The notes beneath the pieces are model-generated. The model saw nothing but the letters and a program-made list of their open reading frames with translations, did not search any database and had not been told where the DNA came from. The translations under genes were made by a program, and so were the position numbers. A stretch of 48,851 nucleotides of DNA from a virus, in the IMG/VR virus record IMGVR_UViG_3300020109_000035, positions 1-48,851 of that record, one strand, 5' to 3'. Positions 16,305-19,209 of the stretch are shown in pieces (positions within the stretch are counted from its first letter, which is position 1; each line of letters opens with the position of its first letter).

Positions 16305-16493
16305 ATGCCCCGCACCGCCCGCACAACCCCTACCGGCCGCCAGTTGGCGATCGCCGTCCCGCGCGACGCCTGGACCGGCGTCGGCCTGGCCGTCACCCCC
16401 GACGAGGACGGCGACCAGACGGACCTGTTCGAGCAGATCGCCGCCGAGCACCACATCGACGACGCCGCCGTTCAGTTCCTCACCCGCCGGTGA
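16305..16493 (+). CDS. Small hypothetical protein (62 aa)
   Basis: ATG after ACTCGTGGAGGAGACC, downstream of operator site 3. Short basic N-terminus, then an acidic body (TPDEDGDQTDLFEQIAAEHHIDDAAVQFL). It ends in a GTGA overlap with the C5-methyltransferase gene, so it heads the methyltransferase transcript. No family is recognised. Confidence 0.65.
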   Translation: MPRTARTTPTGRQLAIAVPRDAWTGVGLAVTPDEDGDQTDLFEQIAAEHHIDDAAVQFLTRR

Positions 16494-18001
16494 TCGGCCT
16501 CCGGATCGGGTCCCTGTTCACCGGCTACGGCGGCCTAGACATGGCTGTCGAGGAGGTCACCGGCGGGCGCACCGTGTGGGTGTCCGAGTACGAGCCGCCC
16601 ACCAAGAAGAACCCGCGCCCCACCCAAGCCGCCGCCCGCCTGCTCGCCTACCGGCACCCCGACGTGCCCAACCTCGGCGACGTGTCCGCGATCGACTGGG
16701 CTGGCGTGCCCCGCGTCGACGTCCTCACCGGCGGGTTTCCCTGCCAGGGCCTCTCCCTCGCCGGGAAACGCCTCGGCCTGCTGGACGCCCGCTCCGGGCT
16801 GTGGGAGCGAATGGCCTACGCCGTCGACCAGCTGCGCCCGTCCCTTGTCGTGATCGAGAACGTGAGAGGTCTGCTCAGTGCCGAAGCCGGTGGCTCGCTG
16901 GAATCCTGCCCGTGGTGTGTGGGAGACCCCGACCACGTCCCTCTGCGGGCACTCGGAGCCGTTCTCGGAGACCTGGCCGACCTCGGGTACGACGCTCGCT
17001 GGATCGGCCTACGCGCTGCCGACGTGGGCGCACCTCACGGCCGCTTCCGGGTGTTCGTCGTCGCCTGGCCTGCTGCCGACGCCGACGACGTCGGACGGCG
17101 CCGGAGGGCCGGGTTCGTCGGGTCGGGACGGCGGGGACAACCTGAGGACGGCCGTAGCGTTGCTGCCGACACCGGTAGCGCGAGACCACAAGGGCCGGCA
17201 GAACGGGCCCGGCCGGGAGCGCGACGGGAAGCCGAGGACGACGGGGGACGACGGACTGCCGGACGCGCTCGAGCGGCTACTGCCGACGCCGACGGCGGTC
17301 CCGTACGGGACACAGCAGTCCCCGAGTTCAGGAGCATCGGTGCGGCCGTCACTGGAGACCCTCATCCCGTTGCTTCCGACGCCGACGGCGATCGCCTCGG
17401 CGGCGTCGGGCGGATTGTCACCGTCGGACGTGACGCTGACGGATGCGGTCGAGCGGACCGCAATGGGCACCCGGCCGAATCCGAGGCACGCCCCGCTGTT
17501 GCCGACGCCCAAAGCTGCGGCGGCCCGGACGTCGCGGAAGGCGCTCACCCAGCAGCACTGGTCGGCTCCGAGTCTGGAGCAGGCGCTGGAGATCGCCCGG
17601 GGGGAACTGCCGCGGGAGCTGTTCTCCTGGGAGGAGTTGCAGGGGTCCAGTGGGGGGAGTTCGAGACCGCCGTCAGACGATGGGAGACCATGACCCGGCC
17701 CGCTCCGGCGCCGACCGAGCAGGACTGGGAGGGGTGGCAGCGGCGTCGCGCCGCTGCACTCCGGCGTCGCCGGAGCCGTGTCCAGCCCGTCGGCCACCGC
17801 GGCTCGGTGTGGGGGCTGTGGAACCCGCCCGCTCATCGCCTGTCTCCCGAGTTCGTGGAGTGGATGATGGGCCTCCCCGAGGGGTGGGTCACTGCTGTTC
17901 CCGGCCTCAACCGGCGCGAGGCCCTGCGAATGCTCGGCAACGGCGTCGTGCCCCAGCAGGCCGCCGCCGCTGTCCGGGTGCTGCTCAGCGGTGCGGTATG
18001 A
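16490..18001 (+). CDS. C5-cytosine DNA methyltransferase with embedded second frame
   Basis: 503 aa. Motif I SLFTGYGGLD (8-17), catalytic GGFPCQG with C85, motif VI IENVRG (~122-127), motif VIII GAPHGRFRVF (~181-190), and after a long variable region the C-terminal LSPEFVEWMMGLPEGW (~451-466) and motif X GNGVVPQQA. It transfers methyl to cytosine C5, probably protecting phage DNA. The variable region (17075-17640), where target recognition normally lies, has many A/T-ending codons in this frame and fully overlaps another ORF (16878-17693) with better codon use. The frame is open throughout, so one long protein is possible. Alternatively N- and C-terminal parts may be joined by frameshifting. 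Confidence 0.82.
   Translation: MIGLRIGSLFTGYGGLDMAVEEVTGGRTVWVSEYEPPTKKNPRPTQAAARLLAYRHPDVPNLGDVSAIDWAGVPRVDVLTGGFPCQGLSLAGKRLGLLDARSGLWERMAYAVDQLRPSLVVIENVRGLLSAEAGGSLESCPWCVGDPDHVPLRALGAVLGDLADLGYDARWIGLRAADVGAPHGRFRVFVVAWPAADADDVGRRRRAGFVGSGRRGQPEDGRSVAADTGSARPQGPAERARPGARREAEDDGGRRTAGRARAATADADGGPVRDTAVPEFRSIGAAVTGDPHPVASDADGDRLGGVGRIVTVGRDADGCGRADRNGHPAESEARPAVADAQSCGGPDVAEGAHPAALVGSESGAGAGDRPGGTAAGAVLLGGVAGVQWGEFETAVRRWETMTRPAPAPTEQDWEGWQRRRAAALRRRRSRVQPVGHRGSVWGLWNPPAHRLSPEFVEWMMGLPEGWVTAVPGLNRREALRMLGNGVVPQQAAAAVRVLLSGAV
16878..17693 (+). CDS. LLPTP-repeat protein in the +1 frame inside the methyltransferase
   Basis: 271 aa from GTG 16878, preceded by GAGAGG with an 8-nt gap. It opens with a segment typical of a methyltransferase-associated family in actinobacteria and phages (WNPARGVWETPTTSLCGH, SETWPTSGTTLAGSAYALP), then carries five LLPTP units with spacers containing D/K/G residues. 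Over about 100 codons from 17070 I count roughly 15 A/T third positions here against roughly 37 in the methyltransferase frame. This suggests real coding selection on this frame. Role unknown. Family members usually sit beside C5 methyltransferases. In this phage it overlaps the enzyme's variable region completely. Confidence 0.6.
   Translation: MPKPVARWNPARGVWETPTTSLCGHSEPFSETWPTSGTTLAGSAYALPTWAHLTAASGCSSSPGLLPTPTTSDGAGGPGSSGRDGGDNLRTAVALLPTPVARDHKGRQNGPGRERDGKPRTTGDDGLPDALERLLPTPTAVPYGTQQSPSSGASVRPSLETLIPLLPTPTAIASAASGGLSPSDVTLTDAVERTAMGTRPNPRHAPLLPTPKAAAARTSRKALTQQHWSAPSLEQALEIARGELPRELFSWEELQGSSGGSSRPPSDDGRP
17070..17510 (+). repeat. Five LLPTP-encoding repeats
   Basis: Short units built on TGCTGCCGACGCCGACG-like DNA begin at 17070, 17160, 17277, 17370 and 17496 (spacing 90, 117, 93 and 126 nt). 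In the +1 frame they read LLPTP. In the methyltransferase frame the same bases read A-D-A/T-D-type units such as ADADD and SDADG. Confidence 0.8.
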
Positions 18002-19209
18002 CCGCCCCGCACTACCGGGACGGCTCGGTCACCGTCCTGCACGGCGACGCCCTGGACCTGCTCCCCGAGATCCCGACCGGCTCGGTCGACGCCGTCGTCA
18101 CCGACCCGCCCTACGGAATCGGCTTCATGGGCAAGGCCTGGGACGGCCCCGGCGGGATGCTCGGCCAGTTGGCGACCGGCCAGGAGACCCGCGCCGGCGG
18201 TGGCCTCGCCTACGGCGGCACCCACTCCCGCGGCTACGCCGAGAACGACCCGGCCGCGTTCCAGGCCTGGGCCGGCCGATGGGCCGCCGAGTGCCTGCGA
18301 GTACTCCGCCCCGGCGGCCACCTGGTGACGTTCGGGTCGTCGAGGACGTGGCACCGCCTCGCCGTCGCCGTCGAGGACGCCGGGTTTGAGATCCGGGACA
18401 GCATCGCCTGGCTGTACGGGCAGGGCTTCCCCAAGTCGCTGGACGTCGAGCGCGCCACCGGCTCGGAGGAGTGGGCCGGCTGGGGCACCGCGCTGAAGCC
18501 CGCGTTCGAGCCGATCGTCGTCGCCCGGAAGGCCCTCACCGGCACGGTCGCCGCCAACGTCACCGAGCACCGCACCGGCGCCCTGAACGTCGACGGGTGC
18601 CGGGTGCCGATCTCCGAGACCGACCGCGCGGCGATCGACGCCAAGCACGCCGGGATGGACGTCGCCGCCTACGTCCGCGCGCCCGGGGCGTCGCTGAACC
18701 TGTCGGCCAACCCGATACCGCTCCGGCAGGCCCAGGCCCACGACCTCGGCCGCTGGCCGACCAACGTCGTGCTCGCCGAGGAGGCCGCCGAGCAGTTGGA
18801 CGCCGAGACGGGCGTGCGGCGCGCTGGAGCCGCTCCGGCCCGCCGGCAGGGCATCGGCTACGGCGGCCAGCAGACGGGCACCGAGGGCGAGCGCCGGGAC
18901 TTCGAGCCCGGCGGCGCCTCCCGGTACTTCCCGACCTTCCGGTGGGAGGCCAAGGCCCCGACCTCCGAGCGCCCGCGGGACGGCGACACCGCGCACCCCA
19001 CGGTCAAGCCGCTAGACCTCATGCGGTGGATCGTCCGGCTGGTCACCCCGCCGGGCGGCCTAGTGCTGGACCCGTTCGCCGGCTCGGGGACGACGGCCGA
19101 GGCGTGCGTCGTCGAGGGCTTCCGGTGCCTCACGATTGAGCGGGAAGCCGCCTACCTGCCGCTGATCGTCGGCCGCCTGTCCAAGCCGATCCAGGGCGTG
19201 CTGCTGTGA
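17998..19209 (+). CDS. DNA amino-methyltransferase (adenine N6 / cytosine N4)
   Basis: 403 aa. Motif IV DPPYGIG at 36-42 follows a strand DALDLLPEIPTGSVDAVVT. Motif I FAGSGTT is near 360, just after HPTVKPLDLMRWIVRLVTPPGG. This order (IV before I) marks the beta class. The central ~200 residues (about 150-330) form the target-recognition region. ATG is in an ATGA overlap with the C5 enzyme, so the two are made from one message. With the ParB fusion at 4766 this gives three DNA methyltransferases, none with an obvious restriction partner, consistent with anti-restriction modification. Confidence 0.92.
   Translation: MTAPHYRDGSVTVLHGDALDLLPEIPTGSVDAVVTDPPYGIGFMGKAWDGPGGMLGQLATGQETRAGGGLAYGGTHSRGYAENDPAAFQAWAGRWAAECLRVLRPGGHLVTFGSSRTWHRLAVAVEDAGFEIRDSIAWLYGQGFPKSLDVERATGSEEWAGWGTALKPAFEPIVVARKALTGTVAANVTEHRTGALNVDGCRVPISETDRAAIDAKHAGMDVAAYVRAPGASLNLSANPIPLRQAQAHDLGRWPTNVVLAEEAAEQLDAETGVRRAGAAPARRQGIGYGGQQTGTEGERRDFEPGGASRYFPTFRWEAKAPTSERPRDGDTAHPTVKPLDLMRWIVRLVTPPGGLVLDPFAGSGTTAEACVVEGFRCLTIEREAAYLPLIVGRLSKPIQGVLL

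Follow-up and report, generated by a model that had tools for sequence, protein, structure and literature searches.

A probable two-chain C5-cytosine methyltransferase encoded in two nested reading frames of a virus contig

A C5-cytosine methyltransferase gene whose middle part is also open in the +1 frame raises the question of whether both frames encode proteins and, if so, to which of the two the region between the catalytic motifs belongs. The stretch of DNA analysed (the window) is a virus contig of 48,851 bases, which carries portal, tape-measure and tail genes, and the locus lies on its plus strand. Translation confirmed the outer frame of the original prediction: the ORF at 16490-18001 starts with GTG, runs through 503 codons without an internal stop and ends with TGA. 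The +1-frame ORF at 16878-17693, expected to have a GAGAGG and a GTG of its own, was likewise recovered and encodes 271 amino acids, including all five of the predicted LLPTP units (starting at 17073, 17163, 17280, 17373 and 17499). The next gene (17998-19209), joined to the outer ORF through an ATGA overlap, encodes a second DNA methyltransferase (PHROG 67, E = 3.8e-85).

The outer protein (alpha chain, 503 aa) matches PF00145 over residues 5-192 (Pfam, E = 1.3e-31), with further matches to PHROG 116 and 363, and its fold matches M.HhaI and M.HaeIII (Foldseek, E about 1e-14). All catalytic motifs of C5-methyltransferases sit in this frame, as seen from the sequence and the invariant columns of alignment A3, in the order motifs I-VIII, disordered linker, motifs IX-X. 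The catalytic half with motifs I-VIII (16508-17056), which is supported by the sequence, invariant columns of A3 and high pLDDT, includes motif I (GSLFTGYGGLD), PCQ with its Cys codon at 16742-16744, ENV at 16856-16864 and motif VIII (GAPHGRFRVF) at 17027-17056. In the AlphaFold model both catalytic halves are confident, while residues 209-381 (173 residues, 17114-17632) form one continuous disordered stretch with pLDDT below 50; this linker is open throughout, and its assignment also draws on stop avoidance and weak conservation. Conserved outer coding resumes at the WGEFETAVRRWE segment (17651-17686; consensus WGxYxPAIxRWE in A3, pLDDT 76-96), followed at 17837-17962 by motif IX (RLSPEFVEWMMGLPEGW) and motif X (LGNGVVPQQA), identified from invariant columns and matches to PHROG 1008 and 10223. 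Judged from the model, the outer chain would have no recognition domain between motifs VIII and IX, where residues 209-381 are predicted to be disordered and are conserved little beyond the third frame.

The inner protein (beta chain) matches PHROG 1008 (E = 3.8e-24), in agreement with the suggestion that it opens like a methyltransferase-associated family. It has no match in Pfam, NCBIfam or PDB sequences and no fold match, by which an HNH or another known domain was ruled out. Its N-terminal part is a conserved, beta-rich domain of about 60 residues (WNPARGVWE...TWPTSGTT), which AlphaFold predicts to be beta-rich over residues 1-50 (block pLDDT 91, 92, 90, 76 and 86). The LPTP modules that follow are predicted at pLDDT 41-72 (one block 78), with short helices near module ends. 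The stretch encoding the folded domain (16878-17066) encodes the motif V-VIII region in the outer frame, and inner-stop avoidance, frame-preserving nulls and pLDDT mark it as a doubly conserved overlap.

Relatives collected by protein searches comprised actinophages, 66 viral contigs and 80 actinobacterial genome loci, and their layouts were assigned by frame mapping. The same two-frame arrangement is shared by dozens of actinobacterial viruses and hosts. Because hits in the viral and genome scans were selected by short peptide patterns, WNPARGVW appears more conserved than it is; weaker forms (WNTARDVWE, WNPKRQLWE and WDSTARLWM) are seen in relatives retrieved by BLAST independently of this pattern. 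In the split layout, the outer ORF stops soon past motif VIII, mostly within about 60 nt of the overlap (later in Jinkies, L008), and the inner ORF holds both the LPTP modules and motifs IX-X. In the nested layout, to which the window locus belongs, the LPTP modules lie in the inner frame and motifs IX-X in the outer frame, which is open all through. In the mixed layout, the first one or two LPTP units lie in the inner frame, and further units, beginning right after the inner stop in most of these loci, are followed by motifs IX-X in the outer frame. A fourth, EcoHK31I-like layout with motif IX inside and motif X outside was found in a Methylorubrum megaplasmid (L156) and in podovirus ctjLE16 (L162). 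The return of coding to the outer frame is variable in position: inside the modules, before motif IX (as in the window locus), between IX and X, or after X. By parsimony on a tree of motifs I-VIII (a quick tree with many weak branches), the split, nested and mixed layouts have interconverted at least 10 times. GenBank records of phages annotate overlapping alpha/beta methyltransferase pairs (Firecracker genes 6 and 5; ArV1 067a/067b). No description of such overlapping actinophage pairs was found in the literature searched, nor a paper on the ArV1 methyltransferase.

Layout was defined by the frame of motifs IX-X and not by openness, so openness of the outer frame is an independent test. The nested set contained 40 non-redundant loci (<70% identity, 6341 codons), and expected outer stops were obtained from 300 simulations by synonymous permutation with the inner protein and codon composition fixed, related loci being treated as independent. 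Across the LPTP region no outer stop was found in the 40 loci, while 88.1 were expected (simulation minimum 65); for the Streptomyces nested loci (n = 9) the values are 0 and 17.3. In the split control, where the outer frame is not needed, 176 outer stops were counted in 21 loci against 187 expected, which indicates no avoidance. The same difference is visible in codon choice: inner codons ending in T precede GA/AA/AG codons in 0 of 1203 cases and other codons in 489 of 5098 cases in nested loci, compared with 26/268 and 111/937 in high-GC split loci. Because outer stops are missing where 88 are expected and yet are unavoided in split genes, chance openness is excluded for the nested group. 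GC richness alone was also ruled out as the cause by the synonymous permutation with its split-gene control. For the window locus alone, the probability that the outer frame stays open with the inner protein kept is about 0.095 (not significant), and in mixed loci the overlap is too short for openness tests to reach significance alone.

For the inner frame, the raw zero count of stops over the LPTP region was dropped as circular, because this region is defined by the inner stop, and a run-length test was used instead. With the outer protein fixed, the inner runs are longer than expected (Fisher P-value = 1.9e-6, 30 loci), while the window locus alone gives a probability of about 0.17 (not significant). 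In the 190-nt overlap, no inner stop was found in 30 nested loci (21.8 expected) or in mixed loci (10.0 expected), and split loci had 2 (14.8 expected), of which at least one (L006) probably reflects a mis-anchored start. The openness of both frames in homologues is thus far beyond chance.

The inner frame also has conserved start signals. In the window locus, GAGAGG at 16864-16869 is followed after a spacing of 8 nt by GTG at 16878-16880 (the whole signal spanning 16864-16880), and an in-frame TGA lies upstream at 16863-16865. This is the commonest type of inner start, a GTG 18 nt past the Asn-derived position with a Shine-Dalgarno sequence formed by AGA/AGG at the Arg of ENVR; the GAGAGG of the window locus is built from the rare AGA codon of this Arg. 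AGA/AGG was used at the ENVR Arg in 16 of 20 nested loci with GTG start, compared with 9 of 163 background Arg codons (P-value = 2e-13), and in none of 5 homologues with ATG start. Alternatively, the rare codon AAT for the Asn of ENV makes an in-frame ATG; AAT was seen in 9 of 30 loci (8 usable) compared with 2 of 58 background Asn codons (P-value = 8e-4). The inner start is thus preserved through odd codon choices in the outer frame.

Which protein is conserved differs along the locus. The hand-counted third-position contrast from 17070 agrees with the computed values (GC3 over 17070-17400 of 0.855 in the inner and 0.651 in the outer frame; the upstream part of the outer frame has 0.92 and the following gene 0.96). 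Conservation was compared with frame-preserving nulls, in which the protein of the other frame is kept and related loci again count as independent. In the overlap both frames are conserved (inner 177 against 61 in the null, outer 201 against 81). In the LPTP region the inner frame scores 155 against 51, while the outer frame scores 112, near the 103 of the third frame. An upstream control coded only by the outer frame shows next to no inner conservation (103 against 97). Substitution phases in 20 Streptomyces loci of identical geometry follow the same course: upstream, 75% of substitutions fall at the outer third codon position; in the overlap they are rare and split over the third positions of both frames (42 and 40%); in the LPTP region, 56% are at third positions of inner codons, and in IX-X, 79% are at third positions of outer codons. 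From these sequence comparisons, the inner protein alone is clearly conserved over the LPTP region, and the outer frame is just kept open.

The proposal of real dual coding is therefore upheld: stops are avoided in both frames, the start signals are conserved, and so are both proteins over the first 190 nt or so. The related proposal, that a second gene has overprinted the recognition region of the methyltransferase, has to be largely reversed, since the conserved reading of 17067-17690 is the inner LPTP frame. Because this stretch is conserved inside and merely open outside, the inner ORF is better read as a displaced recognition half than as an unrelated new gene. Homologues with one frame broken, which would speak against dual coding, are approached only by Streptomyces copies (outer frame broken in L102, inner frame in L129), and these belong to a separate chromosomal lineage. 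In four Streptomyces loci (L102, L129, L103 and L152) the outer or inner frame is broken or motifs IX-X lie in the third frame, which suggests decay in some hosts; the outer stop of L102, a locus of nested layout, lies upstream of the tested region.

The five LLPTP units of the window locus (17073-17600) are proposed DNA-recognition modules, belonging to families shared with other loci. Examples of these families are PTPAARDWKSGxSNLxxxNARPLNEVV, PTPxAxDSGNxPExHLRKKPGR and KTPTSQLAVNGGSQHPDKRKAGGHGPTLADE. They are shared by otherwise divergent loci at differing positions; nested and split loci have them in the inner frame, and mixed loci carry the same families in the outer frame. Because they turn up in either frame, LPTP is the functional reading irrespective of the ORF that contains it. 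The A-D-A-D-type units described for the outer frame do exist, but as shifted LPTP codons in a stretch that is predicted to be disordered and is selected mainly for openness; they are a by-product of the LPTP reading. With low pLDDT and no fold match for the modules, their proposed recognition role rests on where they lie in mixed loci, between motifs VIII and IX, and on their modularity.

We consider it likely that the locus encodes a two-chain C5 methyltransferase, with a catalytic alpha chain and a recognition beta chain in the +1 frame, as a modular variant of M.EcoHK31I and M.AquI. Selection acts on both frames, the inner start signal is maintained, and the LPTP modules are portable across frames and architectures; the middle of the outer frame is kept open, tolerant in sequence and predicted to be disordered. 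The outer frame would yield alpha, in which a long, unstructured linker joins the AdoMet-binding and catalytic motifs (I-VIII) to motifs IX-X, and the inner frame would yield beta, started at its own ribosome-binding site within the ENV motif. The beta-rich N-terminal domain of beta presumably docks on alpha, and its LPTP modules presumably stand in for the missing target-recognition domain of alpha. The two chains would assemble into a heterodimer in which beta provides sequence specificity, and the phage may use the methyl mark to protect its own DNA. More tentatively, and with somewhat less than even confidence, the LPTP modules might be exchangeable, with one DNA target each, and shuffled among phages as a hidden +1-frame beta chain. 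The methyltransferase gene would then have evolved to maintain a stop-free but meaningless linker opposite the modules, specificity could change in one frame without touching catalysis in the other, and the chain boundary could evolve freely.

Other readings of the locus were weighed against this one. The inner protein could be a separate phage protein, such as a regulator or an anti-restriction factor, overprinted on the methyltransferase without being a subunit. Its own start and folded domain, and the inner ORF of mixed loci, which stops well ahead of motif IX, are in line with this, but split loci add motifs IX-X to the inner protein and mixed loci put the modules in the methyltransferase chain, so the inner protein is physically part of the enzyme; moreover, the outer chain seems, from its model, to have no recognition domain of its own. 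We regard a separate protein as improbable.

A three-piece enzyme, with only the inner frame translated mid-gene and the outer frame open by GC richness, seems still less probable. Re-initiation at the ATGA at 17690-17693, where the inner TGA overlaps an outer-frame ATG, could give a 103-aa piece with motifs IX-X; the ATGA has a GGGAG upstream, stand-alone IX-X proteins of 103 positions exist (PHROG 10223), and GC3 is better in the inner frame. However, the ATGA is not conserved, homologues having mostly CTGA or TAG there, and the count of 0 outer stops against 88 in the nested layout, with no avoidance in split genes, does not fit an unneeded outer frame. Programmed frameshifting, in which one chain is made by a ribosome that switches near motif VIII from the outer to the inner frame, translates the LPTP modules there and switches back before motif IX, is given the same small chance. 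The pieces do sum to one complete enzyme, some relatives hold LPTP modules and motifs IX-X in one frame, and Streptomyces relatives have a conserved candidate +1 shift at another place. Nevertheless, two shifts would be required, no conserved slippery site was found at the inner stop among the homologues compared, and the conserved inner start signals and the conserved inner N-terminal domain over motifs V-VIII would be left unexplained.

The two-chain reading has precedents. The beta subunit of M.EcoHK31I is encoded in another frame inside the alpha gene. M.AquI and M.EcoHK31I are two-polypeptide C5 methyltransferases, and in the latter alpha carries motifs I-VIII and X and beta carries motif IX (PMC3404938). 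With its parts divided over two polypeptides, the enzyme proposed here would be of this kind. The motif distribution of M.EcoHK31I (YGGCCR), with IX on beta and X on alpha, is exactly matched by the inner-family relatives L156 and L162. In contrast, alpha of the window locus has both IX and X, and beta has just the N-terminal domain and five LPTP modules; the larger subunit of M.EcoHK31I is said to hold the recognition domain, whereas the corresponding region of alpha is predicted to be disordered here. In M.AquI, alpha carries motifs I-VIII and beta the variable region and IX-X, a division resembled by the split homologues Dorothy, Chickaboom and Firecracker. Unlike M.AquI, the window locus has motifs IX-X in alpha, and its beta gene is completely nested in that of alpha, with 816 nt shared in two frames.

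Bacillus phages SPR and phi3T have multispecific C5 methyltransferases in which several exchangeable modules separate motif VIII from motif IX. These are similar to the window locus in layout, as phage C5 enzymes with modules, but consist of a single chain in a single frame. In the case of the ShiLan element, too, a phage methylase gene contains a second frame, and the host frame remains open as a loop. However, this element is a mobile HNH endonuclease that some relatives carry as an insertion, while the inner gene here contains methyltransferase pieces and has a fixed starting point within motif IV. A ShiLan-type out-of-frame HNH element was ruled out by this different content and the lack of a Pfam or NCBIfam HNH match of the inner protein. 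What appears to be new is the nested version with exchangeable modules, a mobile return point and quantified selection for openness.

In bacteria and dsDNA phages, long overlaps on the same strand are mostly written off as annotation noise, and the evidence here is unusually clean because split homologues serve as an internal control. The locus represents a gene with one frame conserved solely for openness and conserved modules in the other. Such an arrangement would account for many actinophage 'DNA methylase' annotations that are doubled, truncated or hypothetical, and phage methylation specificity could be read off from the modules that the hidden frame contains.

Several further observations were made in the relatives. 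In about 50 chromosomal copies from Streptomyces and Kitasatospora (L077-L155), a frame transition lies exactly at the catalytic PCQ motif. The transition site CCCTGTCAAAGACGTCTCGGTCGC is identical, including wobble positions, in 40 of 52 copies (e.g., L087, about 2838-2860), and a rare AGA codon occupies the place at which a +1 shift would give GAC. The site resembles a programmed +1 frameshift that has been conserved, or else a conserved lesion. In L087 (2174-3202) and similar Streptomyces loci, the pre-shift frame also extends far beyond the shift without a stop, running across the overlap, and positions -150 to -32 evolve slowly (rate 0.048 compared with 0.168 upstream). On a Euzebya pacifica plasmid (L158, 1540-1931), the distance between the part ending in ENV and motif VIII, about 390 nt, exceeds that of other loci, which might reflect an insertion near the inner start. 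Lastly, Streptomyces jumonjinensis (L109, 890-3776) has three partial tandem copies of the catalytic region of the methyltransferase.
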